Source: Elusimicrobiota bacterium
GTDB taxonomy: Bacteria > Elusimicrobiota > Elusimicrobia > UBA1565 > UBA9628
Direction of reading: 5' to 3'
Assembly (NCBI GenBank): GCA_003151975.1
Contig: PLZD01000025.1
Location: forward strand, 1 to 64,000
DNA length: 64,000 bases
Below the pieces are notes generated by a model that searched no databases, was not told the DNA's origin, and saw nothing but the letters and a program-made list of their open reading frames with translations. The position numbers and the translations under genes were made by a program. Of the stretch, positions 930 to 27,960 are shown piece after piece; the first letter of the stretch is position 1; every line of letters starts with the position of its first letter.

Positions 930-973
930 TGCCCCCAACGAGAATCGAACTCGTGTTTCAGCCTTGAAAGGGC
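930..973 (+). repeat. Left attachment site: displaced tRNA-Glu 3' half
   Basis: Forty-four bases identical to 27917-27960. Read on the minus strand it contains the tRNA-Glu anticodon loop, anticodon stem 3' side, T arm and acceptor 3' strand, but no 5' half, so it cannot form a tRNA. This is the mark left by site-specific integration into a tRNA 3' end. Confidence 0.93.
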
Positions 974-1091: not shown

Positions 1092-1111
1092 GTGGCACAA
1101 ATCTGGCACAA
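1092..1111 (+). repeat. Candidate integrase arm-type site, left copy
   Basis: The 20-mer GTGGCACAAATCTGGCACAA occurs here and at 27825-27844 in the same orientation. It holds two spaced TGGCACAAA units, 120 bases inside the left boundary. Paired short repeats inside both ends of a tRNA-targeted element fit arm-type binding sites of a tyrosine integrase. A tandem 10-mer (TACATCGGTT twice, 1051-1070) and a palindrome GTTTCTCGACGAGAAAC (1020-1036) lie next to it. Confidence 0.6.
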
Positions 1112-5496: not shown

Positions 5497-5790
5497 ATGG
5501 CTGAAACATTGGGTGGACTGAGTGTGGCGCTAGGAGCGAAGCTTAAATCCTTTCGCGATACCGCCAAACTGAACCAGGCACAAGTAGCCGAACTAGTTGG
5601 CCTGAGCCGCGCATCGATTTCGAATATCGAGCATGGCAGGCAACCGGTGACCATTGAGACATTGATGCTGATCGCAAAAGCGTTGCATGTCTCGCTTAAG
5701 GATCTTCTTCCGGATGATGATGAGATTCAGCGCAAGGAGCAAGATCGCCTGTTCGTCCAAAGCGTCGGCTTGAGCCATGGGAATTCGTAA
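5497..5790 (+). CDS. XRE-family transcriptional repressor
   Basis: 97 aa. Residues 12-68 form a Cro/cI-type HTH_3 domain: LGAKLKSFRDTAKLNQAQVA, then ELVGLSRASISNIEHGRQPV and LMLIAKALHVSLKDLL. It overlaps an ImmA-type protease gene by 14 bases. In ICEBs1-like elements the equivalent pair (ImmR/ImmA) keeps the element quiet until DNA damage or a signal triggers cleavage of the repressor. The probable target is the divergent promoter region 5350-5496. High confidence in the domain; the switch role is inferred. Confidence 0.88.
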   Translation: MAETLGGLSVALGAKLKSFRDTAKLNQAQVAELVGLSRASISNIEHGRQPVTIETLMLIAKALHVSLKDLLPDDDEIQRKEQDRLFVQSVGLSHGNS

Positions 5791-6313
5791 AAGAATAATT
5801 AGAGGGAAGGTCGCGGAGCTCCTTTCGCAGGCGAATATTTCGGGAGCTCCCGTTGACCCGTCGAAAGTCGCTGAGCTGCTAAGTCTTGCGATAAATCCCC
5901 AGCCAGCCGATGATGATATCTCCGGGTGCCTTCTTCGGAAAGAAGGCGGTAGCGTGATCGGTGTTAATTCGAAGCATAGCGCTAGTAGACAGCGCTTCAC
6001 GATTGCGCATGAGATTGGGCATTTCCTGTTCCACCGTGGCGAATCAGTGCATCTTGATCGGGCGAATTCCTTTCAGGTTAATTTCCGCGATCAAGATTCG
6101 TCCACCGGTATGTATCTCGAGGAGCGGGAGGCAAATTTTTTTGCTGCCGAGTTGTTGATGCCGCGAGAGTTCCTGGCTGCGGAAATTGGGGTCATAGATT
6201 TGTCCGCTGATGATGATGTTGCTATGAGAAATCTTGCGGACCGATTTGGTGTTAGTATGCAGGCATTGACCTTTCGGCTTGCAAACCTGGGCCTCCTGAC
6301 TCCGTCCTTGTAA
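5777..6313 (+). CDS. immA: ImmA/IrrE-family metallo-endopeptidase
   Basis: 178 aa. The zinc-binding HEIGH motif is at residues 78-82 within RFTIAHEIGHFLFHR, and a third ligand region follows in EREANFFAAELLMP, both typical of the ImmA/IrrE (COG2856) family. The C-terminus (LADRFGVSMQALTFRLANLGLL) is the usual helical tail. These proteases cleave the partner XRE repressor to release element genes. It follows and overlaps the XRE gene, which is the standard arrangement. A weak hairpin (ACTCCGCC/GGCGGAGT) lies downstream at 6369-6389. Confidence 0.9.
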   Translation: MGIRKRIIRGKVAELLSQANISGAPVDPSKVAELLSLAINPQPADDDISGCLLRKEGGSVIGVNSKHSASRQRFTIAHEIGHFLFHRGESVHLDRANSFQVNFRDQDSSTGMYLEEREANFFAAELLMPREFLAAEIGVIDLSADDDVAMRNLADRFGVSMQALTFRLANLGLLTPSL

Positions 6314-6401
6314 ACAGGCGCCAGCTAGCCTAGACCCCAAAGGTCTTGACTGTGGTACCCACATCTTGACTCCGCCGACGGGGCGGAGTACCCTCTAGAT
6401 C

Positions 6402-10296: not shown

Positions 10297-10607
10297 TGGC
10301 GTTCATTTTACCAAAGCTCGCTGCGGCAGGACCATGAACAGACCACCGAAAGAAGGGGCTCTCCTGCCCGGTCCTATCATCGACAGGTTTGCGGTGACGT
10401 TGCGTCAACCGGCTCGAATATTTAGTGGCGTGCGCGCAGCACGGTCCCGCCCGCGGTCCGGCCCAGGGGGGGGGGCCGACTGAATAGCCGGCCAACTAAT
10501 GAAATATGGAGGGTTTGGCCCGAGAAATGGCATAATCTAAAATCGGGTTGCGGCAGATACGCAACACATATTCGTTTATTCTTCTGCGCACCGAACGAGC
10601 CCCAGAA
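10297..10607. other. Intergenic region between divergent operons
   Basis: About 310 bases between the GIY-YIG gene and the DUF3883 gene. A G run sits at 10468-10477 in a GC-rich patch, followed by an AT-richer stretch that should hold the divergent promoters. No RNA gene or clear repeat seen; the open frame upstream of 10608 has no family features. Confidence 0.5.
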
Positions 10608-11771
10608 ATGTCGATTGCCATTACCGCATCCTCACGTAGCCATATTCTCCCGATCGTTAGGGGATTGGTTCGGGCCGGCTGGGTTCCACAAGCAGTACCG
10701 GAGCGGGGCCTGCTATCGAGAAACGGCCAACTCGTTGAGCTCCATTCAGGTCAAGGCGACCTGCGGGTTCGACTTTTTGTTTACAAGGTCACGGGTTCGA
10801 GCCGCGGAAATCCCGATGAGCGTAGAATTGAGATCACCCAGACTTATCCGAAAGGCTTGCAGCGGGCACGGCGCTATGCGGATGTCGTCCTTGGGTTCGA
10901 TGAGGAGCATGATATCTTTGTCGGAGTCGATCCCGCACGCATAGGACACGGCGGCAGTACTGGAAATGCCTCCAGTTTTTTCGACATAGATGGGCTCGGA
11001 TGGAATCGCGAAGACGAAATTCTCATTCGGCCACGCACCACGGAGTTGCTCCGGGGCGGCCTAGAGTTTCACGCCTTCGTGAGACCGCCGCGCCTCGCCG
11101 AATACCTCTACAACTTTGCAGCGATTCACGCCGGCTCGTATGTCGGGAAGGGCAAGTATTCTGGGCCAGCCATCAGCCTCTCGAACCGAATCGTTGAGTC
11201 AAAATTTCAGGTTAACTCGCGGCTTGCGGCAAACGGGGTGCTCAAACTTCTGGGGCCCGCGCAATCAATTCGTAAACGCGGGATTGGGAAATCCACAATC
11301 ACAGCCTTTGAAAAGGGCGACACCAGGAAGCTCCGGAGGAAGAAACTCTCCCGCGAGGAGTTTGAGGAGTTGCAGAGACGAAATGTGGAGAATGGGCGCC
11401 TTGGTGAAGAGTTTGTCCTCAATCACGAGCGCAGGTCCTTGCGCGCGGCAGGGCGGCATAATCTAGCTTCGCGAATCAGATGGGTCAGCGAAAAGTCCGT
11501 TTGCGAGGGCTACGACATTCTTTCTTTTCATCGCAACGGGGATGAAAAATGGATTGAGGTCAAGTCGACGGTGGGCTCTGGGCGAAGTTTCCCGATGAGC
11601 GACAATGAATGGAAAACGGCTTGTCAGACTAACGAGAAGTATTGGATTTACAGAGTCATAAAAGTCCGCTCCAAACCTAAAATCCAAGACATGTTGTGTG
11701 ACCCCAAACGGCTTGAGGCGCAAGGCCGACTTACGAAAATGGCGATGGGCTGGCGTATTACTTTCAAATAA
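10608..11771 (+). CDS. DUF3883 domain protein of a restriction cluster
   Basis: 388 aa from the ATG at 10608; the frame extends 20 codons upstream without a ribosome site. The C-terminal third matches the DUF3883 (NO VEIN C-terminal) pattern: NGRLGEEFVLNHERR, then GYDILSFHRNGDEKWIEVKS, with D near 302 and EVK near 315-317 forming a PD-(D/E)xK-like core, and NEWKTACQTNEKYWIYRV. The N-terminal half has no firm match. It stands 25 bases before a type III-like methyltransferase in the same direction. DUF3883 proteins recur in restriction and defence islands, probably as nuclease or recognition partners. Confidence 0.78.
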   Translation: MSIAITASSRSHILPIVRGLVRAGWVPQAVPERGLLSRNGQLVELHSGQGDLRVRLFVYKVTGSSRGNPDERRIEITQTYPKGLQRARRYADVVLGFDEEHDIFVGVDPARIGHGGSTGNASSFFDIDGLGWNREDEILIRPRTTELLRGGLEFHAFVRPPRLAEYLYNFAAIHAGSYVGKGKYSGPAISLSNRIVESKFQVNSRLAANGVLKLLGPAQSIRKRGIGKSTITAFEKGDTRKLRRKKLSREEFEELQRRNVENGRLGEEFVLNHERRSLRAAGRHNLASRIRWVSEKSVCEGYDILSFHRNGDEKWIEVKSTVGSGRSFPMSDNEWKTACQTNEKYWIYRVIKVRSKPKIQDMLCDPKRLEAQGRLTKMAMGWRITFK

Positions 11772-11796
11772 CGAAGTTATATCGAGGACACCTTTA

Positions 11797-14325
11797 ATGG
11801 CGCGCACAGAAAACGCTGATCGAAAACCGGTCGAGCAATACGATCATAAGGACAAGAAGCGGATAAACAATCCACCGGTAGGCTTGGTTACTAATGACAC
11901 TGAGGAGGCCGATGGCAGAAAAACGTACGCCTATGATCCGCATCTCGATCCGCGTCTCGAATGGTCCGGCAAGAAGGAGCACACGTCTTTTGAAGTCCCA
12001 ACCGTCTCTCTCCACGTCCATGAACGAATTGATCCCAAAACGATCATCGAGGCAGTAAAAAAGAAGAGCATTTACGGAGGTCTCGACGGCGATCAACTCC
12101 CGCTGTTCGAAACAGTCCGCGAGAATCCTCCGCTGCGTGAGGCGCTGGATTTCTACAAGCACTCACACAACTGGTCAAACCGCCTGATTGCCGGCGATTC
12201 CTTGCTGGTTATGAACTCTCTCCTGGAGAAGGAGGGGATGGCTGGCCAGGTGCAGACCGTTTATATCGACCCACCCTATGGCGTTAAGTATCGAAGCAAC
12301 TTCCAGCCATTCGTGAATAAGCGGGATATCTCGCTTTCAGATAAGGACGAAGACCTTACCCAGGAACCCGAAATGATTCGTGCCTTCAGGGATACGTGGG
12401 AATTGGGCATTCATTCTTATTTGACGTACCTTAGAGATCGTCTCTTGTTGGCGAAGGAGATTTTGCACGAAACCGGTTCGTGCTTCGTCCAGATTAGCGA
12501 CGAGAACGTCCACTTGGTCCGCAATCTGATGGACGAAGTATTTGGAGCGGATAATTTTTGCGCCCAGATTAGTTTCACCAAGGCGGCCGGTGGCCTGAGA
12601 TCCGCCTCGCGCGTCGGCTCAGTTTTGGATTACTTGGTTTGGTATGCGAAGGATAAAGAGCACGTAAAATACCGGCCGTTGTACGAGCCCAAGAACGACG
12701 CAATTGACGCCGGCTATACGATGCTTGAATTGGCGAACGGCACACGACGTTCGATGACCCTGGAGGAAAAACAGAAGCGCGAGCCACTCCCGAAGGGATC
12801 TAAGCCTTTCATGTCCGTCCTGATGACCAAGCCAGGACCTGGGTCAAAGTTCGAGGTCGAATACAAAGGCAGGAAGTATGACTCCGGACGCCGATGGTGG
12901 GGTACGACTCCTGAGGGCATACAGAGCGTAATAAAGTCCAAGCGCATCGTATCTACCGATAAAAGTATTCGGTTCGTCAGTTACTTCGACGATTTCCCGT
13001 ATAGAGCGTTCACCAATCTCTGGGATGGATTCGGCGGCGCTGCTGATCCGGTCTATGTGGTCCAGACTAATGCGCAGGTTGTTCAGCGCTGTCTTCTCAT
13101 GACAACGGACCCCGGGGACTTGGTTTTTGACCCAACATGCGGCTCTGGCACCACAGCTGTTGTCTCGGAGCAATGGGGCCGGCGCTGGATTACCTGCGAC
13201 ACTTCCCGAGTGGCCGTAACGCTCGCCAAGCAGCGGTTGATGACTGCCGTCTTCGATTACTACGAACTTCAGCATCCGCATGAAGGCATAGGCAGTGGTT
13301 TTAGATATAAGAGTGCGACTCACACGACGTTGAAGTCGATTGCAAACAACGAGCCTCCTGGAGAGGAGCGACTATATGATCAGCCGTTTGTAGACAATAA
13401 GCGTGTGCGGGTCAATGGTCCGTTCACAGTTGAGGCGGTTCCTGCGCCGAATGTTCGACCGATCTCGGACGTTAGCGCCGATGAGCAGGAAGCTGATGTG
13501 GCGGTTGCTCGGAAAGGGCCGACGTTGCGCCATTCCGAATGGCGTTCGGAGATTCTAAAGACCGGTATTCGTGGAAAGGGTAAACAGTTTATCGAATTCT
13601 CACGGATAGAGCCGCTGCCCGGTACGAAGTGGCTCCACGCCGAGGGAGAAACGAAGGGCGCAGGCCAAGAGCGAGTCGTTGTCTCATTTGGACCTGAACA
13701 CGCGCCGCTAGAACAACGGCAGGTCGAATCGGCTTGGGAAGAGGCGCGCACTTTGAGCCCGAAGCCGACGATGATCCTCTTCGCTTCTTTTGAATTCGAC
13801 CCGGAAGCTGCTAAGGATATTGATGAACTGACTAAGGAAAAGACGGGTATGACTTTCCTAAAGGTGAAGATGAACAATGACCTGCTTACGGACGATCTGA
13901 AGAAACAGCGTTCGAGCAATCAGAGTTTCTGGCTAATGGGGCAGCCAGATGTCGAGGTCCGACAAATAAAGAAGGGTGGGAACAAAGGGAAGTTTGAGGT
14001 CGAGGTTCACGGTTTTGATTACTACAACACCAAGACAGGGTCGATTGAGTCGGGTGATACCTCGAAAATTGCTGTTTGGATGCTCGATACGGACTACGAT
14101 GGCCGTAGCCTGTATCCGAGACAGGTTTTCTTCCCAATGGCGGGCGAGGACGAGGGTTGGGCTCGTCTCGCTAAAACCCTAGAAGGTGAGATCGATGAAG
14201 AACTCATTGAGTCATACCGCGGTACAGCCTCTCTCCCTTTCGTTGCAGGCAAGAATAAGCGAATCGCCGTAAAGATTGTAGATGACCGCGGAATCGAGAG
14301 TTTGAAGGTGGTTCAACTGTCCTAA
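11797..14325 (+). CDS. mod: Type III-like DNA adenine methyltransferase (Mod)
   Basis: 842 aa from the ATG at 11797, which has GAGG upstream; the frame continues upstream into the previous gene without support. The DPPY motif (IDPPYGVKYRSNF) is near residue 158 and the AdoMet site FDPTCGSGTT near 444, the beta-class order, with a long target-recognition region between. The extended C-terminus (about 300 aa) probably contacts Res. It modifies adenine in the element's recognition site and its stop overlaps the Res start by one base. Codon use is less GC-rich than in the neighbouring relaxase genes, suggesting separate acquisition. Confidence 0.9.
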   Translation: MARTENADRKPVEQYDHKDKKRINNPPVGLVTNDTEEADGRKTYAYDPHLDPRLEWSGKKEHTSFEVPTVSLHVHERIDPKTIIEAVKKKSIYGGLDGDQLPLFETVRENPPLREALDFYKHSHNWSNRLIAGDSLLVMNSLLEKEGMAGQVQTVYIDPPYGVKYRSNFQPFVNKRDISLSDKDEDLTQEPEMIRAFRDTWELGIHSYLTYLRDRLLLAKEILHETGSCFVQISDENVHLVRNLMDEVFGADNFCAQISFTKAAGGLRSASRVGSVLDYLVWYAKDKEHVKYRPLYEPKNDAIDAGYTMLELANGTRRSMTLEEKQKREPLPKGSKPFMSVLMTKPGPGSKFEVEYKGRKYDSGRRWWGTTPEGIQSVIKSKRIVSTDKSIRFVSYFDDFPYRAFTNLWDGFGGAADPVYVVQTNAQVVQRCLLMTTDPGDLVFDPTCGSGTTAVVSEQWGRRWITCDTSRVAVTLAKQRLMTAVFDYYELQHPHEGIGSGFRYKSATHTTLKSIANNEPPGEERLYDQPFVDNKRVRVNGPFTVEAVPAPNVRPISDVSADEQEADVAVARKGPTLRHSEWRSEILKTGIRGKGKQFIEFSRIEPLPGTKWLHAEGETKGAGQERVVVSFGPEHAPLEQRQVESAWEEARTLSPKPTMILFASFEFDPEAAKDIDELTKEKTGMTFLKVKMNNDLLTDDLKKQRSSNQSFWLMGQPDVEVRQIKKGGNKGKFEVEVHGFDYYNTKTGSIESGDTSKIAVWMLDTDYDGRSLYPRQVFFPMAGEDEGWARLAKTLEGEIDEELIESYRGTASLPFVAGKNKRIAVKIVDDRGIESLKVVQLS

Positions 14326-17183
14326 TGTCAGGCAAGATCGATCGCCTCATCATCAACTCGCCATACGAGGAACCGAGCCAATACTGGTCCTATAACAGAG
14401 AGGCCCGGTCCTTCTCTCTCGTCAAAGACAAACGTCGGCCTGCGGGCTATATTCGGGCATCTGAAAGCTCGCGTTCCTTCGATGATCCCGGAGAGTTTGT
14501 TGAACTGCCAAGGGTCAACAAGATCAGGGAGCGCGTTAAGGCATGGCGGGAGCACCCAACATCGCCTTATGCCGGGGTAAGCGGCATTACCAGGCGTCTC
14601 CTTGAGCATTGGCGTGACCAGACGCAGCGTGATTCAAACCAGAGGCTTTTCTTCTGCCAGCTCGAAGCGATTGAGACACTCATCTGGGTGACCGAATCGT
14701 CACCTTCAGAGCGTCAGGGGATTGAGTTTCCAAGCGATGGGGGCCCCTTCTCGCGCCTCTGCAGTAAGATGGCTACCGGGTCGGGTAAGACTACGGTGAT
14801 GGCAATGATCATCGCTTGGCAGACTTTGAATAAGGCTACCTATCCCCAGGATAAGAGGTTCGGAAAGAACTTTCTGATCGTTGCGCCGGGTCTGACCGTA
14901 AAGAGCAGGCTCCGAGTCCTGGTCCCGGCAGGTTCTGGGAATTACTACGAAGAGTTCAATGTCGTACCCCCTGGGCTGCATGACAAACTACGAACAGCAA
15001 GAGTCCTGATTCACAATTGGCACGCCCTGTTGCCCCTTGACCCAGAGGCGGGGTCTCGCGTGATCAGAAAAGGAGCCGAGAGCGACGAGGCCTTTACGCG
15101 GCGAGTTCTTGGCGAAATGGGGTCCTCGAGCGGTCTCGTTGTAATCAACGATGAAGCGCACCATGCTTGGCGGGTTCCTCCGAAATCAACGATCAAGGGT
15201 GTAGCGAAGGAGGATATTGAGGAGGCCACTCAATGGGTGGGTGGCTTGGACCGCATCCATAAGACACGCGGCATTTTGCGATGCTTCGATTTGACGGCGA
15301 CCCCATTTGCGCCAACTGGCAAGAGAAGCGGAGAAGAGACTCTCTTCGACTGGATTGTAAGTGATTTCGGCCTCAACGATGCTATTGAGGCGGGCCTAGT
15401 TAAAACCCCGAGGGTGGTGATCCGCGATGATGGTGTTCCCGACGCGAAGACCTACAAGTCGCGTCTCTACCACATCTATGTTGATCCTGAGGTAAAGGAT
15501 GACCTCAGCCGCCGTGCAGAGCCACACGAAAAGCTCCCTGATTTGGTCACTAATGGCTATTACTTGCTGGGCAAGGATTGGCTAGAAACGGCGAAGGACT
15601 GGAAGAAACGAGGCTTCCCGACTCCTCCCGTTATGATCACAGTTGCCAATCGAACGGAAACTGCGGCGCGCATACAATACGCGTTTACTCGCGGAAAGAT
15701 CCGCATCGAGGAACTGAAAGATATTGAAAAGACGCTCCACATCGATTCCAAAGTGCTCGATGAGGCAGAGGCGTTCGGAGAGCCCGTCCCAATTGGCGTA
15801 AGCCGCTCGGACCAAAGCGATGGTGACGAAGAGGGTGCAGGAAAAAAACTTTCAAGAAAGGAGCTGGCTGAGCTTCTGCGTCGAAAGGTTGACACCGTTG
15901 GGAAGGTCGGTCAGCCGGGCGGGCAGATTCAAAATGTTATATCGGTTGGGATGCTATCCGAAGGATGGGACGCCAAGACAGTCACCCATATCATGGGCCT
16001 GCGTGCGTTCTCGAGCCAACTTTTGTGCGAGCAGGTCGTTGGCCGTGGTCTTAGGCGAACATCCTACGAGGTAAATTCTGAGACGGGACTGTTTGAGCCC
16101 GAGTACGTAAACATTTTTGGAGTCCCGTTCACCTTCTTGCCTCATGAAGGTGGAGATGGGCCGCCCCCTCCGCCACCGACGCCAAAGACTCGGATCGAAC
16201 CATTGGTTGAAAAGCTAGAGTTCCAGCTCTCGTGGCCCAATATCGTCCGTGTCGATCATGACTATCGCCCGCAACTATCCCTCGATTGGGCAAAGGTCAA
16301 ACGCTTTACAATCAATGCGAATGACACTCGGACCCTTGCCGAGCTAGCCCCAATTGTGGAGGGTAAGCCGGATGTTAGCAAGGTCACTGAAATTGACCTC
16401 GAAGACCTAGGACGCAAATTCCGCATGCAGAAGGTCGTCTTCGAGGCTGCCGCGGACATTTACGATCAGATGAAACCGCGTTGGAAGGCCAATCGCGAGT
16501 TCCTTCTCGCACAACTCATCGGTTTAGTCGAGCAGTTCTTGAAGTCCGACAAGATCGACATCGACCCTCCTCTATTCAACCATGATGACTTGCGTCGCCG
16601 CATCCTTCTGACTCTCAATATGTCGAAGATCGTCCAGCACATTTGGGAGGCTATCCGCTTCGCGAACACCGAAGCGCTTGCCCCACTCTTTGATACGGAG
16701 AATCCGATTAGGTCTACTGCCGATATGCGCCCGTGGTTCACAGGCCGGCCCTGTGAACAGCCTAGACGCTCTCACATCAGCCACTGCGTCTACGACAGTA
16801 CCTGGGAGGCATGCGAAGCGTTCAAGCTTGACCATGATAAGAGCGTAATAGCTTGGGTCAAGAATGACCATCTGGGATTTGCGATCCTCTACGTATTCAA
16901 TGGCGTAGTGAAGAAATACTACCCGGATTTCCTAATCCGCCTAAAGAACGGGAAATCGCTCATCTTGGAAGTGAAGGGACAAGATTCACAGGAGAATCGG
17001 ACCAAGCGGGAATTCCTGGACGAATGGGTCAAGGCGGTAAATTCTCATGGGGGTTTTGGGGCATGGGCTGCCGATGTATCACGGTCCACGGCCGATTTGC
17101 CTGCCATCCTTCGTAAGCATGCAGAATCAATTCCTGTAACTAAGGCGTCATCTGACAAAGGGAAGGGAGTTCCAGTTGCATGA
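14325..17183 (+). CDS. res: Type III-like restriction subunit (Res): helicase-nuclease
   Basis: 952 aa. Superfamily 2 helicase core: Walker A MATGSGKTTV near residue 148, DEAHH near 275, and SEGWDAKTV with QVVGRGLRR near 545-575. A C-terminal nuclease site YYPDFLIRLKNGK then LILEVKG (PD...ExK) lies near 866-887. In this family Res and Mod form one complex that cuts unmodified DNA after ATP-driven communication between sites. Start ATG overlaps the Mod stop codon by one base, so coupling is tight. All catalytic motifs appear intact. Confidence 0.9.
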   Translation: MSGKIDRLIINSPYEEPSQYWSYNREARSFSLVKDKRRPAGYIRASESSRSFDDPGEFVELPRVNKIRERVKAWREHPTSPYAGVSGITRRLLEHWRDQTQRDSNQRLFFCQLEAIETLIWVTESSPSERQGIEFPSDGGPFSRLCSKMATGSGKTTVMAMIIAWQTLNKATYPQDKRFGKNFLIVAPGLTVKSRLRVLVPAGSGNYYEEFNVVPPGLHDKLRTARVLIHNWHALLPLDPEAGSRVIRKGAESDEAFTRRVLGEMGSSSGLVVINDEAHHAWRVPPKSTIKGVAKEDIEEATQWVGGLDRIHKTRGILRCFDLTATPFAPTGKRSGEETLFDWIVSDFGLNDAIEAGLVKTPRVVIRDDGVPDAKTYKSRLYHIYVDPEVKDDLSRRAEPHEKLPDLVTNGYYLLGKDWLETAKDWKKRGFPTPPVMITVANRTETAARIQYAFTRGKIRIEELKDIEKTLHIDSKVLDEAEAFGEPVPIGVSRSDQSDGDEEGAGKKLSRKELAELLRRKVDTVGKVGQPGGQIQNVISVGMLSEGWDAKTVTHIMGLRAFSSQLLCEQVVGRGLRRTSYEVNSETGLFEPEYVNIFGVPFTFLPHEGGDGPPPPPPTPKTRIEPLVEKLEFQLSWPNIVRVDHDYRPQLSLDWAKVKRFTINANDTRTLAELAPIVEGKPDVSKVTEIDLEDLGRKFRMQKVVFEAAADIYDQMKPRWKANREFLLAQLIGLVEQFLKSDKIDIDPPLFNHDDLRRRILLTLNMSKIVQHIWEAIRFANTEALAPLFDTENPIRSTADMRPWFTGRPCEQPRRSHISHCVYDSTWEACEAFKLDHDKSVIAWVKNDHLGFAILYVFNGVVKKYYPDFLIRLKNGKSLILEVKGQDSQENRTKREFLDEWVKAVNSHGGFGAWAADVSRSTADLPAILRKHAESIPVTKASSDKGKGVPVA

Positions 17184-17208: not shown

Positions 17209-17976
17209 ATGTATCTGGGGATCGACGCTGGCTTTTCTGCGCAAGGCAGAAGTACTGGTCTCTGCCTAATCGATCCCTTCGCCAAAAATCCTGTCCGCTC
17301 TATTCATGTGAGGACCGCGGAAACAACCGCCGCGATCACCGATCTGCTATCATCGAGGGCCCCAATCGCTGCATCAATCGATGGCCCTTTGCTCCTATCA
17401 AACTCGGGGCTCCGCTTTACAACCGCGAACAGATATCGCGAATGTGAACGGATGCTCTCAGGCGGGATATTTCAAAAGCGGTGCAAGCCAGGAGCTACAA
17501 ATACTCCGCGCGGTTTCGCATTGCATAGGCAAGCAACCTCAATTGCAAATTTCCTCCTTAGGACGTTTCCAGGAATTATCATTCACGAGGCGTTCCCAAA
17601 CGCCTTTCTCGGTGTCATGTTGCCGGACTCCGCCTTCCGGGTGCCCATCCGCCGTGGTATCAAGTCAGATGTTTTCTGGGAGAATTGCGTGAACGGGACC
17701 ACGTTGATGCGTCGGCTACTGAACCGCCTATTCCCCGGAACCCTGGCAATCAGATTGCTAAAGGCCGCAACGAAGCTCAATGACCATGACGAGAGAGCAG
17801 CATTCGTGTGCGCTCTTGTTGCGCGGGGATCGGAAACACAGGCGAATTTCATGGTAGGCAACGGTGCGGATGGAGCGATCTCGCTCCCTCCAGCAAACTG
17901 TATTCAACCCTGGGCTCTTGATGAACTCAGAATCCGATGCGGCCCTACCGGGAATACTGGAGCGATCCTGGCATGA
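17209..17976 (+). CDS. DUF429-family protein (predicted RNase H-like fold)
   Basis: 255 aa. It starts YLGIDAGFSA, the glycine-flanked Asp strand of DUF429, and has AASIDGPLLL near residue 56 and a late acidic segment (LNDHDERAAFVCALVA), an arrangement reminiscent of RNase H/RuvC-like nucleases. RTTPRG-like and HEAFPNAFLG segments also fit DUF429. It lies 25 bases after Res in the same direction, so it is likely part of the restriction cluster. No DUF429 function is established; a nuclease role is an inference from fold. Confidence 0.75.
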   Translation: MYLGIDAGFSAQGRSTGLCLIDPFAKNPVRSIHVRTAETTAAITDLLSSRAPIAASIDGPLLLSNSGLRFTTANRYRECERMLSGGIFQKRCKPGATNTPRGFALHRQATSIANFLLRTFPGIIIHEAFPNAFLGVMLPDSAFRVPIRRGIKSDVFWENCVNGTTLMRRLLNRLFPGTLAIRLLKAATKLNDHDERAAFVCALVARGSETQANFMVGNGADGAISLPPANCIQPWALDELRIRCGPTGNTGAILA

Positions 17977-19025
17977 TGACCCCGCCGACATTGCGGCCCG
18001 ATGAGGCCATGAAGCTCGAGGACCTCCTCGAGAACATCGACGACCTCGTCATACTCGCGACCACCGACGGCAAGATCCTCTACGTCAACCGCGCCTGGCG
18101 TGAGAAGCTCGGCTATTCCCAGGAAGAAGTGCACAAGATCAACGCGCACGACGTGCTGCACCCCATGCAGCATCGCCTGGTCGCTGTCAACGAGGCCAAG
18201 TTGATGGCCGGCGAAACGTTGCGGGACGTTCAAAGGACGTTCGTGGCCAAGAATGGGAACGAATTCTTCGTCGAGGGATTTCTCAATTACCGCTTCGGCA
18301 AGGACGGCAAGCCCGAATACGTGCGCGCGGTGTTCCGCGACATCACCGAGCGCAAGAAAGCCGAGGAGATGAAGAATGAGCTCATCGCGATGGCGACCCA
18401 CGAGCTGCGCAGCCCGCTGACCTCGATCATCGGCTCGATCGAACTGGCCAAACGCCACCCTGACACGGCGGACAAGATGCTGGAGATGGCTCTGCGCAAC
18501 AGCCAGTTCATGCTCGATCTGATAAACGATTACCTGAGCATCGAAAAATTGACCTCGGGCGGCACTCCGCTCAACCTAGAACCTCTGGACCTCTCGGCCT
18601 TGGTCGAAGGCACGCTGGAGACGGGCCGGGGCCTGGGCGCTAAGAATCAGGTGAGGCTGGAGCTGGGCGCCGTTCTGGACGGCGCCAAGGTCTCGGGCGA
18701 CCCCGACCGCCTGCGCCAGGTGCTGACGAACCTGCTCTCGAACGCTGTCAAGTTCTCGCCTGAGAACGACGTCGTCACGGCGTCCATCTCGCGCAAAGAG
18801 GGCTTCCTGCGGGTGAGTGTGGCCGACCACGGCCCCGGCATACCGGAGAATTTTCGCGGCAAGATCTTCGGACGCTTCGAGCAAGCCGAGGGGCACAAGA
18901 AGGGGGGCTCGGGCCTTGGGCTTGCCATCTCGAAGGCCATCGTGGAGCGCCACAACGGGCGCATCGGCTTCGAGACCGGAAACGGAACTACTTTCTTCTT
19001 CGAGCTGCCCGAGCTTGCTTCTTGA
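17973..19025 (+). CDS. PAS-domain sensor histidine kinase, no partner regulator nearby
   Basis: About 350 aa from ATG 17973, which overlaps the DUF429 stop (ATGATG/TGA). A PAS domain covers about 10-125 (ILYVNRAWREKLGY to FRDITERKKAEE), the HisKA phosphoacceptor is His near 143 (ATHELRSPLTSII), and the HATPase boxes are NLLSNAVKF, DHGPGIP and GSGLGLAISKAI. No membrane segment, so it senses a cytosolic signal. No response regulator is encoded nearby. GC content is higher than in the restriction genes it is joined to. The start could be at 17937 or 17976. Confidence 0.85.
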   Translation: MMTPPTLRPDEAMKLEDLLENIDDLVILATTDGKILYVNRAWREKLGYSQEEVHKINAHDVLHPMQHRLVAVNEAKLMAGETLRDVQRTFVAKNGNEFFVEGFLNYRFGKDGKPEYVRAVFRDITERKKAEEMKNELIAMATHELRSPLTSIIGSIELAKRHPDTADKMLEMALRNSQFMLDLINDYLSIEKLTSGGTPLNLEPLDLSALVEGTLETGRGLGAKNQVRLELGAVLDGAKVSGDPDRLRQVLTNLLSNAVKFSPENDVVTASISRKEGFLRVSVADHGPGIPENFRGKIFGRFEQAEGHKKGGSGLGLAISKAIVERHNGRIGFETGNGTTFFFELPELAS

Positions 19026-19987: not shown

Positions 19988-22900
19988 ATGCTGACTTCCT
20001 GCAAGCTGACCGGCGACCCGAAGGCCACGGCCAACTACCACATGGGGGAGGAGAATTACTATTTCTCCCAGGCCGGCAGCGCGGAAGGACTCGCAGGCGA
20101 CGGCGCTCCCGGCACTCAGGACCACGTTCGCGTCCATGGGGAGCTCCTCAGGGAGCTTGGTTTCCGGGACGGCCAGGCCATCACGCGCGAGCAGTTCACC
20201 AACATGCTCAGCGGCAAGGATGCCTGGGGCGTCAAGGTTTCCGGCTGGCGCAAGGTCCACGGCATCGACCTCACCTTCTCGGCGCCCAAGTCCGTCAGCG
20301 TGGCCGCCCTGCTGACGCACCGCGATCCCAAGATCCTGGAGGCCCACGAAGACGCCGTCCTCGAGGTCATGCGCGAGATCGAGTACCAGTGCGGAGCGGC
20401 CCAGCCCAAGCCCGGCGTGTGCGCTCCGACCCACAAGCTCGCCTACGTTACGGCGCTCGACGGCTTCAACCGGGAGCACGAACCCCACATCCATACGCAT
20501 GTCGTCATCGCCAACATGACCTTCTACAACGGGAAGGTCTACGCCCTGGACGGCCGCGAGATCATGACCCGGGCGTTCAACAAGATGTGGGGGGCGATGT
20601 ACCGGGGCAAGCTCGCAACCAAGCTTAAGGCACTGGGTTACGGCGTGACCTATACCAAGAAGGGGGAGATCCGGCTGGACGCCGTATCGCTCGAAGTCGA
20701 GAAGGCGTTCTCGGGGCGGCGGGCCCAAATCCTCGAGGCCAAGGGGCGCGGCCTGCGCGATATGGCCGCGTGGGACACGACGCGCAAGGGCAAGGACCCG
20801 GAGGTCGGGAAAGAGGAGGTGTTGGCGAAATGGCAGAAGAAGCTGGAGCAGTTCCAGGAGAAGTCGCCGGAGGTCAACAGGGCGGAGGCCTTGAGCGAAC
20901 GGACTCGGTGGTGCCAGGAAGCTCACTGGAGCGTCGAGGCGAGACAGGAGCTGGGCGGGGAGAGGGTCACCGGCGAAGTTGGACGATGGCAGCTGGCTGT
21001 TGAGCGGGCGACTCAGTCCTCGGCCTGCGTCACGAAGGACGAGATCATCACCGAGTACCTGACCGAGCTTGCCCGCACCGAGTCCTGGAAGAACGTGACC
21101 TACGCCCAGGCCGAGGCGGGGCTCGAAGCTCAGGTCAAGGCCGGCCACATCCTCAGGACCGACAACGGCTTCTACACCAGCTGGGAGATGGCCCGGGCGG
21201 ACCGCGAGTGCGTCCAGCGCCATGAAGCTTGGAGCGTGGCTCTGACGGATTGGCGGGCGCGGCGCGATGTCGCGGCCTACCAAGAGGCAGCTCGAAGCGC
21301 CGGCAGGAAGCTGCTGTCGGAGCGGCAGATTCAGGTGGCGGTTGGGATTCTGACGGCGGGCGAGGGAACCGTGATCGTCCAAGGCGATGCGGGGTCGGGG
21401 AAGACGACGATGCTGAGGGCCGTCAACCATGTGGCCTCCGCCGCCCGCTTTGCGGTCTATGGGGTCGCGGTCCAGGGCGTCGCCGCCCGGAACCTGGAAA
21501 ACGAGTCGGGCATCGAATCGTGCACGCTGGCTTCTTACTTGGAGGACGCAAAGCAGAGGACCGACTCCGGCGGTCCGCGGCTCGTGGTGCTTGATGAAGC
21601 GTCTATGCTGGGCAGTCGGGATGCGGCCAAGCTCCTGACGGTGGCCGCTCGGCGCGGCGACAAGGTGGTCCTGGTCGGCGACCGCAATCAAATCCAGTCG
21701 ATCGGCGCCGGCAGGCCCTTCGAGCGGCTCATCGAGACCGCCGAGGCCTCCGGCAAACTGCTGAGCCTTCAGGACAACTGGCGCCAGCGCAACCCCGTCC
21801 TGCGCGAGGCGGTCGACCTGGCGCGGCAAGGCCAAATGCGGCAGAGCTTCGATCTGCTTGAGAGCAAAGGTCATGTCATTGAAGTTCATGACGCTCTTCA
21901 GCGCCGGACCTACATCGCGGGCATGTACAAGAAAGACACGCTGATCCTGACCGGAACCGTCGAGAGCTGCGAGGACCTCAACAAGAAGATCCGGGCCAAG
22001 CTCATGGAGAAGGGGGAGCTCGATCCCAAGACTCAGCGGGAGTACCGGCTCTCTCGAAAGGACAACGACGGCGTCCGGCATGATTCTTACCGCCAGATCG
22101 CCGCTGGCGAGCGCATCCGCTTTCTCGAGAACGACTACCGCGACAACCTGGACGTGCGCAACGGGGAATGCGGAACAGTAGAGAAGACGTTGGCGGGGGC
22201 GCTGGAAGTGCGTCACGATGACGGCCGGCTGCTCAAGATCGACCTCTCCCAGTATTCGATGATGGATCATGGCTACGCGGTGACGACGTATAAGGGCCAA
22301 GGCCAGACCTTCGACCGCGTTCTTGTCGAGGCGGACACGCGGATTCCGCAGCTGCAGGATCAAAGGAACTCTTATGTGCAGATCACGCGCGCGCGCGACG
22401 AGATCGCCATCTTCACCGACGACGCCGAAGCCTTGCGCGACATCGCGGGGATATTGAACGGCAAGCGCGACACGCTGGACCTCAAGGCCGATCTCGAGGA
22501 ATCAAAGCGCATGGAAGCAAAGGTCGACGACCTCGCCCGCCGCGAGGTCGCTTCGATAAGTCGCGAGGCTGAGGCTTTCGGCCAGGAGGCTGCGGAGAGC
22601 ATCACGGCGCCGATCGAGATTGAGGAGCCCGCGCCCATCCGGATCGAGAACGAGACGGCCCTCTTCAATGTGGGCGGCATCAAGGATGCCGAGAAGGACC
22701 TTCGGGCCCAAATGCAGAAGATCGAGGACCATATCAACGGGCGCGACGATCTCGCGCACGCCGACAAGCTCCGGTTGGCGGCGGTTTTCAATAGCGGCGA
22801 CGCGAGCACTCTGCTCCTGATCCACTCGTTGCCGGAGCACAAGATTCTTGGCGCCGAAGTCGCTTTGGGCATCAAATCGGAGGACGAGGCGTGCGCGGGT

Positions 22901-23026
22901 CTTAAGAGCGGCGGGAAGTGGGCCGTTAAGAATTCCGCGAGCATGGCGAGGGGAATCGCGAGGTCCCGGCGCGTCGAGCCGACGAAGGAGCGCGACCATG
23001 TTGAGGACTTTGGATTTGAGCTATAG
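19988..23026 (+). CDS. MobF-family conjugative relaxase-helicase (TrwC/TraI-like)
   Basis: 1012 aa. N-terminal relaxase domain: candidate catalytic tyrosines Y17 and Y24/Y25, FSAPKSVSV near 97-105, and the three-His metal site HEPHIHTHVV at 164-173. A RecD-like superfamily 1 helicase follows with Walker A GDAGSGKTT at 466-474, LDEAS near 535-539 and a C-terminal YAVTTYKGQGQTFDRVLVE motif. It would nick at oriT, stay bound to the 5' end and unwind the strand for transfer. Length matches TrwC. It heads an operon with a MerR-like and an AlpA-like protein. Confidence 0.95.
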   Translation: MLTSCKLTGDPKATANYHMGEENYYFSQAGSAEGLAGDGAPGTQDHVRVHGELLRELGFRDGQAITREQFTNMLSGKDAWGVKVSGWRKVHGIDLTFSAPKSVSVAALLTHRDPKILEAHEDAVLEVMREIEYQCGAAQPKPGVCAPTHKLAYVTALDGFNREHEPHIHTHVVIANMTFYNGKVYALDGREIMTRAFNKMWGAMYRGKLATKLKALGYGVTYTKKGEIRLDAVSLEVEKAFSGRRAQILEAKGRGLRDMAAWDTTRKGKDPEVGKEEVLAKWQKKLEQFQEKSPEVNRAEALSERTRWCQEAHWSVEARQELGGERVTGEVGRWQLAVERATQSSACVTKDEIITEYLTELARTESWKNVTYAQAEAGLEAQVKAGHILRTDNGFYTSWEMARADRECVQRHEAWSVALTDWRARRDVAAYQEAARSAGRKLLSERQIQVAVGILTAGEGTVIVQGDAGSGKTTMLRAVNHVASAARFAVYGVAVQGVAARNLENESGIESCTLASYLEDAKQRTDSGGPRLVVLDEASMLGSRDAAKLLTVAARRGDKVVLVGDRNQIQSIGAGRPFERLIETAEASGKLLSLQDNWRQRNPVLREAVDLARQGQMRQSFDLLESKGHVIEVHDALQRRTYIAGMYKKDTLILTGTVESCEDLNKKIRAKLMEKGELDPKTQREYRLSRKDNDGVRHDSYRQIAAGERIRFLENDYRDNLDVRNGECGTVEKTLAGALEVRHDDGRLLKIDLSQYSMMDHGYAVTTYKGQGQTFDRVLVEADTRIPQLQDQRNSYVQITRARDEIAIFTDDAEALRDIAGILNGKRDTLDLKADLEESKRMEAKVDDLARREVASISREAEAFGQEAAESITAPIEIEEPAPIRIENETALFNVGGIKDAEKDLRAQMQKIEDHINGRDDLAHADKLRLAAVFNSGDASTLLLIHSLPEHKILGAEVALGIKSEDEACAGLKSGGKWAVKNSASMARGIARSRRVEPTKERDHVEDFGFEL

Positions 23027-23931: not shown

Positions 23932-24144
23932 ATGGAATCAGAACGACTCTTGACCGTCGAGCAGCTGGCCGGTTGGCTGCAGGTGAAAAAACGGACCGTC
24001 TATCAATGGGTCCACGAGGAGTATATTCCCGTGGTTAAGCTGGGCGCTCTCGTGCGCTTTCGCGAAGGCAGCGTCAACGAATGGATCAGGAAGCGCGAGC
24101 AGCCCGGGCGGAGCGAGCGAAAGCTACGGATCGACGTCGACTGA
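23932..24144 (+). CDS. AlpA/excisionase-like HTH_17 protein
   Basis: 70 aa, almost entirely one MerR-type HTH_17 domain: LTVEQLAGWLQVKKRTVYQW then a wing (VVKLGALVRFREGSVNEWI) and a basic tail. Size and pattern fit excisionases and AlpA regulators. Last gene of the relaxase operon, so it may couple excision to transfer. Confidence 0.85.
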   Translation: MESERLLTVEQLAGWLQVKKRTVYQWVHEEYIPVVKLGALVRFREGSVNEWIRKREQPGRSERKLRIDVD

Positions 24145-24161: not shown

Positions 24162-25487
24162 CTATCTCTTGGGGCGAGAGAGCAGGTCTGCGACATCTTC
24201 ATGTCGACTCCGCTTTGCAATGTCCAGAGCTGTATGACCGTCCTTGTCCCGCGTGCTCACGTCAGCCCCTGCTTTGAGAAGCAGCCTTACAACATCCACG
24301 CGCCCTCCTTCCGCGGCAAGCATCAAGGCGGTCCCTAGTTCGCTGCTGACCGCATTCACCTTGGCACCGTGGTTAATGAGTAGGCCTGCCAAGTCCGCAT
24401 CTCCATTGGCGGCAGCGCCCATGAGAGCTGTTGGATCGCCCTCCTTCGTCGCATTCACCTTCGCCCCATTTTGAATAAGTAGTTGCGCAATCTCGGAGTG
24501 CCGCCCGATCACCGCTCTCTCCAATGCGGTACCGCCGTCCTTCCCAGCGGTGTTCACCTCAGCACCATGCTGAATGAGCAGATTTACCACATCCGCATGG
24601 CCGCCACGGGCAGCGTACATTAACGCCGTCGAGCCATCCGTGTCAGACGAATTCACAGCAGCCCCTTTTTGGATAAGCAGTCCTGCAACCTCCGCGCGGC
24701 CGCTGTCTGAAGCAGTCATCAAGGCAGTTATTCCGTCCTCGCTGGATGAATTAACGTCAATCCCTTGATCCAGAATATCTTGGACCGCTTTCAAATCCGT
24801 TTCCTTGGCGGCCATCCTAAGTTTATGGCCGGCTGGCTCAAAGCCATGTTGGCCGACAATGCCTAAATTCAACGCAATGAGCAAGAAGAGTAAGACCTTT
24901 CCTGGCCAGCGAATAGGGCGGGTCTTGCAAGCTCGCTCCCCTAACCGCCACTCCACGCGCAGCATAACGCGCGTTATGCAGTAGGCAGCTCCCAAAGCAA
25001 ACGCCGTTCCAAAAAAAAGAGCCATGCCCGGTCGGTCCGAAACCTTTAATGATATGGTCATGGCGATGAAGCAGCCCCACCAGATTCCAACGACATCATC
25101 AGGTTGGCGCTCCCAGTCAATTTTCGACGCCGGAGAAAAAGAAGGAAGACTTCCGACATAGAGCTGGGAAACCATTTGATATGGCCGGAAGAATAGCCAA
25201 ATTGGTGTGAACCAGCCAAAAATCGCCCAAAGACGATGATGCAATAATGGGAAGCCAGCGTCTTCGAGTCTCATCGTGGAGGTCATCAGCCACCAAATAA
25301 ATAAAATACCACCATCGACAAACCCTAATACCCCGGCAATCATTATGGGCGAAGAGATGCCAAGAGCCATTGCTCCCGTCCCGATGACGGCGAGCCATAT
25401 CGCGCAGATCGCAATCTGCGCCGGTAGTGGAGCTTCTCGAAAACGAGCCTGCCTTTGATTCGTAGAATCGGCGCTCTGTTCGATCAC
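24162..25487 (-). CDS. Membrane protein with DUF4328-like region and ankyrin repeats
   Basis: 441 aa. The first 215 residues hold about four to five hydrophobic segments, with FGWFTPIWLFFRPYQMVSQL resembling the DUF4328 signature. Residues about 222-438 are seven 33-residue ankyrin repeats (for example GSTALMYAARGGHADVVNLL). The ankyrin part probably faces the cytoplasm and binds a partner. It lies 24 bases after a membrane metallopeptidase-like gene on the same strand. Convergent with the AlpA-like gene. The pair's role is unknown; inhibitor or sensor of the protease-like partner is one possibility. Confidence 0.85.
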   Translation of the reverse strand: MIEQSADSTNQRQARFREAPLPAQIAICAIWLAVIGTGAMALGISSPIMIAGVLGFVDGGILFIWWLMTSTMRLEDAGFPLLHHRLWAIFGWFTPIWLFFRPYQMVSQLYVGSLPSFSPASKIDWERQPDDVVGIWWGCFIAMTISLKVSDRPGMALFFGTAFALGAAYCITRVMLRVEWRLGERACKTRPIRWPGKVLLFLLIALNLGIVGQHGFEPAGHKLRMAAKETDLKAVQDILDQGIDVNSSSEDGITALMTASDSGRAEVAGLLIQKGAAVNSSDTDGSTALMYAARGGHADVVNLLIQHGAEVNTAGKDGGTALERAVIGRHSEIAQLLIQNGAKVNATKEGDPTALMGAAANGDADLAGLLINHGAKVNAVSSELGTALMLAAEGGRVDVVRLLLKAGADVSTRDKDGHTALDIAKRSRHEDVADLLSRPKR

Positions 25488-25511
25488 TTTCCGATGACCT
25501 TCTGACCTGTC

Positions 25512-26684
25512 TCAGCGCATTTGGAGTGTGGCATTCAGTTCCTCTTTGGCATCGCGAACGGCACCTTCATAGTAATGGCGGGCTGCTGCGAGCCGCTCAG
25601 GAGAGGACCACGTCCGTAGATTGTCCTCCATCAAGATGAGACTGCTGTCGCGGTCATTTTCTGATTGCTCGCGATTAAGCGTGGAGTTGTCCTCAGGCGT
25701 GTCGAAGCCCTGGAACGTCTTGATCTTTTGCACATAGTACGGCGTGGCGTCGTGGGTCGAATCAAAAATGGATGGAAGGTCATAACTGCTTAGACTCCAT
25801 TCGACATATCGTGGCAGACTGTCCGCCAGGTATTGAAGAGTTGCATAGCTCGCATACGCGGCCTGAGGAATATGCTCCGCATCCCTGTCGGCGTCAATCT
25901 GGCGTGCGAGGCGGCTTTCGACATATCCCTTTTGCAAGAAAGAGCATGCATACCATGGGCTGCAACTCCTTGTTGACCAGCGATTCGAGAGCACTTCCAG
26001 CCAAGGCGCCTCGCCGTTTCGGGCTCTAAGCCGTTCAAAATTGCCCTCGTCGAGCTGCGCCAACTCCTCGTTCTCCACGCAATTCACAGTGTACGGGAAC
26101 GCTCTATCGTCCCGCGCATGACGAACTTCATGAACAATCGTACTGGCCAGGAGAGCTGCAAGACCGACGCTGCTGCTCTTCGAAGAGATCGCCGCCGTCC
26201 TATTGGAAAGCGCGGTATCCGGATCTATCACCAGAGAATGGTCGGTCCTCCGGTACTTGGCCACCGTTTCGGGCGATATGAACTCGAACACAACGCGGAT
26301 ACCGCCGTGTTCCAAGAAATCGGCCGTTCTTGCCGCGATCGGGTTTCCATTAAGCGACCGAAAGTATTGAATCAAAGAGTATTGCAGGTTCCGCTCTGAC
26401 TCAGTCTGGGCTCGTGAGATTCTGATTCGGTGCACGAGTCGGAGTGTGGCGCCATTTCGATAATAAGGCGTATAATCCGCGAGCACTCGGTATCCCAACA
26501 GCGAAACGGCCAGAAATCCCGCGGCGATAGCGAGAACGGATGACGTTCTTTTCCATCGAGGAACAGCCGGAGCTTCGGCTCGCCGCGGAGGACTTGAAAA
26601 GAGACGATTGCAGTGAGGGCACTTTGACTTGTTGACGCCTACATCTTCATTGCAAAAGGGGCAAAGATAGCCGATTTCTTGCAT
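25512..26684 (-). CDS. Membrane-anchored metallopeptidase-like protein with zinc ribbon
   Basis: 390 aa. An N-terminal zinc ribbon (C8xxC11 ... C22xxC25) is followed by one membrane segment at about 49-69 and a large outer domain with HEVRH at 185-189, an HExxH zinc-peptidase signature in ASTIVHEVRHARDD. A Glu-rich stretch (NCVENEELAQLDEGNFE) downstream could give the third ligand. The fold is not one I recognise. First gene of a two-gene operon with an ankyrin membrane protein, adjacent to the integrase. Confidence 0.7.
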   Translation of the reverse strand: MQEIGYLCPFCNEDVGVNKSKCPHCNRLFSSPPRRAEAPAVPRWKRTSSVLAIAAGFLAVSLLGYRVLADYTPYYRNGATLRLVHRIRISRAQTESERNLQYSLIQYFRSLNGNPIAARTADFLEHGGIRVVFEFISPETVAKYRRTDHSLVIDPDTALSNRTAAISSKSSSVGLAALLASTIVHEVRHARDDRAFPYTVNCVENEELAQLDEGNFERLRARNGEAPWLEVLSNRWSTRSCSPWYACSFLQKGYVESRLARQIDADRDAEHIPQAAYASYATLQYLADSLPRYVEWSLSSYDLPSIFDSTHDATPYYVQKIKTFQGFDTPEDNSTLNREQSENDRDSSLILMEDNLRTWSSPERLAAARHYYEGAVRDAKEELNATLQMR

Positions 26685-26792: not shown

Positions 26793-27812
26793 CTAGTAAT
26801 GGAGTTTGTCTACGGCCGCGCGCAGATAGTCCGGGGCCAGGTGCGCGTAGATCTCGGTGGTCTTGATGCTGGAGTGACCGAGCAGCTTCTGGACCGTGTA
26901 GATGTCGGCGCCGTTCATGACGAGGTGGCTCGCGAACGTGTGGCGCAGCGTATGAACCGAGACGTTCTTGATGCCGCAGCCGCGGAACACCACTCGGAAG
27001 TCGCGGGACAGGACGTTCCCATCGAGCTTGTTACCGCCGCCGTTCCTGAAAATAAACGTGCCATCCCGTTTGGGGAAGCCCTGAAGGAGGCGAACTAGAT
27101 GCGCCGTCATCGGGATGTGCCGTACCTCGTAGTCCTTGGGGTTCCAGCCGTCTTTGGATTGGACCGATAGCAGCTTGTTCTTGAAGTCAATGTCGGTCCA
27201 AGCAAGATGGATCAACTCGTCCCGCCGAAGTCCCGTGTGAAGAAAAGTTTCCAAGATCGGCCGGAGCCGATCGTTCGATGCCTTGAGCGCGACCTTGATC
27301 TCATCCGTGGTCAGATAGCGGACCTTGCGCCGAGGCTCTTTGAACTTCTGGACGGATTTAGCCGGGCTCTCGGAGAGGGCTCCCCAAGCGACGGCTTTGT
27401 TGAGCATGGCCTTGATCGTGTTGAGTTCGCGATTGATCGTGGAGACCATCGTGCCTTGTTCGCGGCGGTGGGTCTTGTATGCTTCCAGGCGGGACGCCGT
27501 GATGGCGCCGACTTTGTCCACCTGCATGAACGCTGCGAAGATCTTGAGGACTTGCGTATCACGGTCGAAAGAGAGGGGGGCCTTGTTGCCTTTGGAGTAC
27601 GTCAGGTATTCCTGGACGAAATCAGCGAAATTGCGGTTCTTGGCGGCAAACCCAAGCTCTTTGCGTTCTAGCTTGACGTCTATCTCCCCGGCGGCGAGAT
27701 TGGCGAGCTTCTGGGAGCGCCCCAGGCGCTTGCGCACCCGGCGGCCATCGACGAAGTAGTCGACGTAATAGACCGTGCCCTTCTTGCCCTCGCGGGAGTA
27801 GACTCGGGACAT
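26793..27812 (-). CDS. int: Tyrosine recombinase (element integrase)
   Basis: 339 aa from ATG 27810-27812; a longer frame starts at 27857 but would run through the arm-site repeat. N-terminal AP2-like arm-binding part (GTVYYVDYFVDGRRVRKRLG), SAM-like core-binding domain, then the catalytic domain with Arg in HTGLRRDEL (about 192), HTLRHTFASHL (about 285), GHSSIKTTEIY with Tyr near 322. All catalytic residues are present. It lies next to the tRNA-Glu target, as expected of the enzyme that inserted this element. Confidence 0.95.
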   Translation of the reverse strand: MSRVYSREGKKGTVYYVDYFVDGRRVRKRLGRSQKLANLAAGEIDVKLERKELGFAAKNRNFADFVQEYLTYSKGNKAPLSFDRDTQVLKIFAAFMQVDKVGAITASRLEAYKTHRREQGTMVSTINRELNTIKAMLNKAVAWGALSESPAKSVQKFKEPRRKVRYLTTDEIKVALKASNDRLRPILETFLHTGLRRDELIHLAWTDIDFKNKLLSVQSKDGWNPKDYEVRHIPMTAHLVRLLQGFPKRDGTFIFRNGGGNKLDGNVLSRDFRVVFRGCGIKNVSVHTLRHTFASHLVMNGADIYTVQKLLGHSSIKTTEIYAHLAPDYLRAAVDKLHY

Positions 27813-27824
27813 GACCCCATTATT

Positions 27825-27844
27825 GTGGCACAAATCTGGCACAA
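27825..27844 (+). repeat. Candidate integrase arm-type site, right copy
   Basis: Identical 20-mer to 1092-1111, same orientation, about 75 bases inside the right boundary and just upstream of the integrase start. Binding here could also repress the integrase promoter. Confidence 0.6.
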
Positions 27845-27855
27845 GCGCAAGACCC

Positions 27856-27893
27856 AAAAAAAGACGGAGGAGGGCTTTTGGCCTTCCTCCGTC
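27856..27893 (-). terminator. Rho-independent terminator behind tRNA-Glu, carried by the element
   Basis: On the minus strand the stem GACGGAGGA / TCCTCCGTC with inner GGC/GCC pairs (27863-27893) is followed by TTTTTTT. It stops the tRNA-Lys/tRNA-Glu transcript 25 bases after the tRNA and shields the integrase gene. It lies inside the element boundary, so it was brought by the element. Confidence 0.85.
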
Positions 27894-27916: not shown

Positions 27917-27960
27917 TGCCCCCAACGAGAATCGAACTCGTGTTTCAGCCTTGAAAGGGC
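27917..27960 (+). repeat. Right attachment site within tRNA-Glu
   Basis: Identical to 930-973 over 44 bases; forms the 3' half of the intact tRNA-Glu gene, so integration left the tRNA functional. Confidence 0.93.

Follow-up and report, generated by a model that had tools for sequence, protein, structure and literature searches.

The window, a 64,000-nucleotide stretch of an Elusimicrobiota bacterium contig, carries two adjacent membrane-protein genes that we call P0002 and P0001. Both lie on the same strand with P0002 upstream, and a gap of 24 nt separates the open reading frames. P0001 starts with a GTG codon, immediately preceded by the RBS-like sequence AGAAGG. A terminator-like hairpin and an overlapping promoter-like site lie between the integrase gene and P0002, so that the pair would form its own transcription unit, as far as consensus matches can tell. 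An earlier note on this DNA had described the two neighbouring frames as a DUF4328-like ankyrin membrane protein and a membrane protein with a zinc ribbon, one helix and HExxH, lying as cargo beside an integrase. We found each of these points to hold: DUF4328 scores above the Pfam cut-off, the seven repeats, the ribbon motif, the helix and HExxH can all be read in the sequence, and the integrase adjoins the pair inside an att-bounded element (Table 1).

Table 1. Features of the P0002-P0001 locus and of the element that carries it (window positions)
Feature	Position	Strand	Remarks
Integrative element, complete, 27.0 kb	930-27960	.	att repeats, integrase, MobF relaxase
Attachment repeat, far end	930..973	.	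44-bp exact direct repeat
Inner 20-bp exact repeat, far end	1092..1111	.	
MobF/TrwC relaxase-helicase	19988..23026	+	Pfam TrwC 5.6e-48; NCBIfam MobF above cut-off
Conserved element protein, 257 aa	23134..23907	+	element-family marker
HTH_17 excisionase-like gene	23932..24144	+	other slot border; Pfam E=5.5e-12; kept in sister elements
P0001, second gene of pair	24162..25487	-	441 aa; DUF4328 membrane region and seven ankyrin repeats
P0001 ankyrin repeats (seven), residues ~222-439	24171..24824	-	Pfam and by eye; predicted periplasmic side
P0001 DUF4328 match, residues 49-146	25050..25343	-	Pfam E=3.9e-9, 36.7 bits against a cut-off of 27.2
P0002, first gene of pair	25512..26684	-	390 aa; zinc ribbon, one membrane helix, HExxH peptidase domain
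P0002 ENE, residues 204-206	26067..26075	-	candidate third zinc ligand; E206 invariant, E204 at least 90%
P0002 HEVRH zinc-binding motif, residues 185-189	26118..26132	-	H185, E186 and H189 invariant in 40 relatives
P0002 membrane helix, residues 50-68 (approximate)	26481..26537	-	single, strong; RWKR before helix
P0002 zinc-ribbon motif CPFC-x10-CPHC, residues ~5-28	26601..26672	-	predicted cytosolic; Pfam sub-threshold
Promoter-like site 5′ of P0002	26778-26749	-	overlaps hairpin; consensus match only
Terminator-like hairpin 3′ of integrase	26779-26765	-	consensus match only
Tyrosine integrase	26793..27857	-	Pfam Phage_integrase E=2.5e-30
Inner 20-bp exact repeat, integrase end	27825..27844	.	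possible arm-type site
Attachment repeat, integrase end	27917..27960	.	3′ part of tRNA-Glu; 44-bp exact direct repeat

With an integrase, attachment repeats at a tRNA gene and a relaxase, the element is probably an integrative mobilizable element. Its own mating-pair machinery would make such an element an ICE; no T4SS gene was found in the ten main element ORFs scanned with Pfam. The GC content is about 0.63 in the host against about 0.55 over most of the element, the relaxase region excepted. Furthermore, the element carries other defence-like genes. A restriction-modification-like cluster at 10548-17183 comprises a NOV_C/MTaX1 protein, a type III-like DNA methylase and a ResIII-type helicase, and at 5497-9305 a capH/capP-like pair (an HTH protein and an ImmA/IrrE-like peptidase) sits just upstream of the gene for a UvrD helicase bearing Top1-type zinc fingers. 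Two adjacent genes at 2154-4096 look AbiE-like by eye (a nucleotidyltransferase-like protein and its partner) and are matched by no model of Pfam or PADLOC; beside the integrase at a locus in another genome (L154, G218) lies a 35-aa C-terminal piece with 60% identity to the first of them. A PAS-histidine kinase is encoded at 17937-19025, and no response regulator was noticed nearby.

Four cysteines of P0002 (C8-C11-C22-C25) form the CxxC-x10-CxxC motif of a zinc ribbon, and no Pfam zinc-ribbon model reached its cut-off for this protein. The basic RWKR stretch ahead of the helix points to an N-in/C-out orientation, and we infer a topology with a cytosolic ribbon, one helix and a periplasmic HExxH domain. 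A lone HExxH is expected by chance in about 1% of 390-aa proteins, as estimated from amino-acid frequencies, and by itself is therefore weak evidence for a peptidase. Conservation among relatives was one of two points on which the earlier note had made its reading depend. In an alignment of 40 relatives H185, E186, H189 and E206 never vary, and at least 90% of the sequences keep E204; the aligned members were taken from matches that keep HExxH, and 7 of 68 sampled ORFs, all weaker matches, lack it. The motif followed by a downstream Glu, a pattern shared by the relatives, matches the layout of a gluzincin-like site. P0002 passes the cut-off of none of the Pfam and NCBIfam models and so falls in no named peptidase family, and a profile search found no relative in the PDB. 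A single-sequence AlphaFold model had a pLDDT of 35 and gave no usable structure. Kinship with the element's own ImmA/IrrE-like protein found no support, the match covering 15 columns at a probability of 3.4.

Two scans of GTDB contigs, which paired short peptide patterns with a strict tblastn check and rule out close relatives only, returned none, and close relatives were likewise missing from viral contigs, phages and plasmids. The profile search of the peptidase domain that the earlier note had proposed, run iteratively with one distant match and a same-genome paralogue as its starting points, recovered the family in 93 of the 341 genomes of the phylum, and P0002 by its sequence is a member of a large unnamed HExxH peptidase family. 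HExxH is present in 61 of the 68 sampled ORFs, and in 56 of these 61 a signal-like or membrane stretch lies upstream of the domain, which indicates that export of the domain is the rule; since most relatives have such a signal peptide or helix, the catalytic domain of P0002 is itself probably periplasmic. Close family members share a C-terminal motif, FW-x-D-x-x-R...AR-x-YY. Single members weakly match putative or known HExxH metallopeptidases (DUF4344 at best 2.8e-5, DUF6782 at 0.011, Peptidase_M48 at 0.016), so that the family appears metallopeptidase-like yet falls in no named family; these models match only one or two of 40 members and not P0002 itself. The zinc-ribbon motif occurs in none of the 68 sampled ORFs, making the cytosolic ribbon with its tether P0002's own feature among the members sampled. 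By eye, N-terminal motifs resembling this ribbon are found in cyclic-nucleotide-binding-like proteins of the same genome (L003, 965-1492 and 1492-2064), which suggests that this lineage often adds such a ribbon to its proteins.

The ankyrin part of P0001 is matched by Pfam ankyrin families with E-values down to 1.4e-56. The protein has five clear helices with successive loop K/R counts of 3, 0, 5, 1 and 8, followed by the ankyrin part. The basic loop at 173-197, with its 8 K/R before the last helix, would place the repeats outside, on the predicted side of the P0002 peptidase. A W-rich stretch at about 85-103 may form a sixth helix, which would flip the N-terminal side and leave the ankyrin placement unaffected. 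Nowhere else in the 341 genomes did we see the DUF4328-ankyrin fusion: besides the source genome, just one has a DUF4328 match above cut-off, and its 251-aa frame leaves no room for a P0001-like ankyrin region as well. We found no paper on DUF4328 with ankyrin repeats, or on DUF4328 alone. The candidate defence ankyrin protein PDC-M72A of PADLOC matches P0001 at E=5.4e-45, but within the repeats only, the DUF4328 part being unmatched, and membership of P0001 in that family was rejected. No PADLOC model matches P0002.

Next we examined the slot between the integrase and the HTH_17 excisionase-like gene, which in the window is filled by the pair. Around relatives of the integrase within the same family of genomes, the modules again run integrase, slot, HTH_17, usually with the 257-aa protein as well; more distant relatives of this 257-aa marker were rejected as comparisons because their element layouts differ. 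Eight elements were comparable. In three the slot is empty or gene-poor (G195, less than 90 bp; G194:C59, no gap; G209, about 0.58 kb, no convincing gene), and in one (G218) it holds about 5.9 kb of metabolic, non-defence cargo with, by eye, a LysR-like regulator and a transporter-like gene. The other four hold AbiD (G205:C7, 7e-71), PDC-M21A and B (G205:C11, 1.7e-49 and 5.6e-64), a PDC-M21B/AbiEii-like gene (G216, E=2.5e-58, in an element beside the same tRNA-Lys/tRNA-Glu pair) and, in the second element of the source genome, a SoFic-like Fic protein (G000:C53, 2.8e-120). Known or candidate anti-phage genes thus occupy four of the five other filled slots, the PDC families counted here being themselves candidates only. 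Collectively, these elements define a defence-rich cargo hotspot, in a small sample from one family of genomes. Elsewhere (G194:C29, L191 1684-2064), a 126-aa ankyrin gene follows, at a distance of 56 nt, an integrase sharing 65% identity with that of the window, but the HTH_17 border is missing.

Because of this defence-rich slot, an anti-phage or addiction role is our leading guess for the pair. Tentatively, and as something possible rather than probable, we propose that P0002 and P0001 are a two-gene mobile envelope module in which a peptidase effector is accompanied by an ankyrin partner or inhibitor on the same side of the membrane. P0002 would be a membrane-tethered zinc peptidase with its ribbon in the cytosol, and P0001 a multi-pass protein presenting its ankyrin solenoid on the peptidase side, where it would most likely hold, restrain or position P0002; its action may be inhibition, activation or targeting. 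Once released, the peptidase activity would damage an envelope target, and the module would most likely protect the host cell or the element. The fuller version, a mobile anti-phage system whose peptidase is restrained in the periplasm by the DUF4328-ankyrin partner and released when phage infection disturbs the envelope, we consider unlikely.

The main rival is ordinary envelope proteolysis, in which P0002 would be a lineage-typical extracytoplasmic peptidase carried as cargo for housekeeping or nutrient proteolysis and P0001 an unrelated neighbour. The family is widespread across the phylum, and its members are for the most part exported; they are also mostly chromosomal there, so that most of them are probably not defence genes. 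Ankyrin genes, for their part, occur in 230 of the 341 genomes. We examined some 70 loci of the family, in most cases over 10-20 kb of surrounding sequence, and found an ankyrin gene adjoining a family member at only two besides that of the window, neither with DUF4328; the whole module did not turn up again. From ankyrin gene density we roughly estimate a few tenths of such a neighbour by chance, which makes two above zero and too few to exclude chance. We reject a conserved two-gene system. Of the earlier note's uncharacterised envelope-acting system, the envelope location is supported by the export signals of the family, but a recurrent pairing, or conserved neighbourhood, finds no support. 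One of the two loci, in G184 (L052 492-2589), has a membrane HExxH member followed on the same strand, in the same order and after a 19-nt gap, by a 341-aa ankyrin gene and then, by eye, a FIST-like gene. At the other, in the source genome (L076 6946-9310), a P0002 paralogue is divergent from a gene for an ankyrin and caspase-like protein with a lipoprotein-like start. Both arrangements speak against an unrelated neighbour, as do the close same-strand spacing of P0002 and P0001 and their common slot, otherwise rich in defence genes. Taken together, we regard the rival as rather unlikely.

The idea of an effector with its regulator, which the earlier note had raised, leans on analogy with two enzyme-ankyrin pairs. 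In Tle6-Tli, the enzyme gene is co-transcribed with that of a periplasmic ankyrin partner whose solenoid cups the enzyme (PMC11470151). Besides activating the lipase Tle ahead of its export, Tli neutralises it in the periplasm (PMC10294624). The enzyme-then-ankyrin order and the membrane or periplasmic placement are as in P0002-P0001; Tle, however, is a T6SS-delivered lipase and Tli a lipoprotein without DUF4328, whereas P0002 is a tethered HExxH protein with no lipase match, and a pair of the Tle6-Tli type was rejected. The second case, KatB-AnkB of Pseudomonas aeruginosa, is likewise an enzyme and ankyrin partner in a two-gene operon, in which KatB reaches full activity only with periplasmic AnkB, as related in the passage of PMC2830190 that cites Howell 2000; KatB is a catalase rather than a peptidase, and that passage reports no DUF4328 fusion. 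The carrier also has known counterparts: in E. coli, tRNA-integrated, relaxase-bearing IMEs carry defence genes in tRNA hotspots (PMC10121019), and the element studied here is alike in its tRNA site, relaxase and defence genes but belongs to a different phylum.

The likeness to Tle-Tli (PMC10294624, PMC11470151) would also fit an interbacterial toxin-immunity pair, with P0002 acting on rivals or kin and P0001 as the ankyrin immunity protein, and the small immunity-like ankyrin gene beside the related integrase in G194 agrees with this; P0002, however, is helix-anchored, lacks any recognisable domain for secretion or delivery and adjoins no secretion-system gene, which leaves such a pair improbable. 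Very improbable is a signal-transducing protease, in which ribbon and peptidase would relay an envelope signal sensed by P0001 and thereby regulate whether the element is transferred or excised: the two-sided layout of P0002, the histidine kinase on the element and the position between integrase and excisionase-like gene favour it, but sister elements keep integrase and HTH_17 without such a pair, three of them around an empty or gene-poor slot, showing that the pair is not needed for transfer.

New here are the peptidase family, the borders of the element and the defence-rich slot. With matches in 93 of the 341 genomes, this study defines a widespread, unnamed family of extracytoplasmic HExxH peptidases in the phylum. 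Genes between such an integrase and HTH_17 become ranked candidates, and the slot can be mined for new defence genes. Should P0002-P0001 prove to be a defence system, it would consist of an envelope protease with an ankyrin partner.
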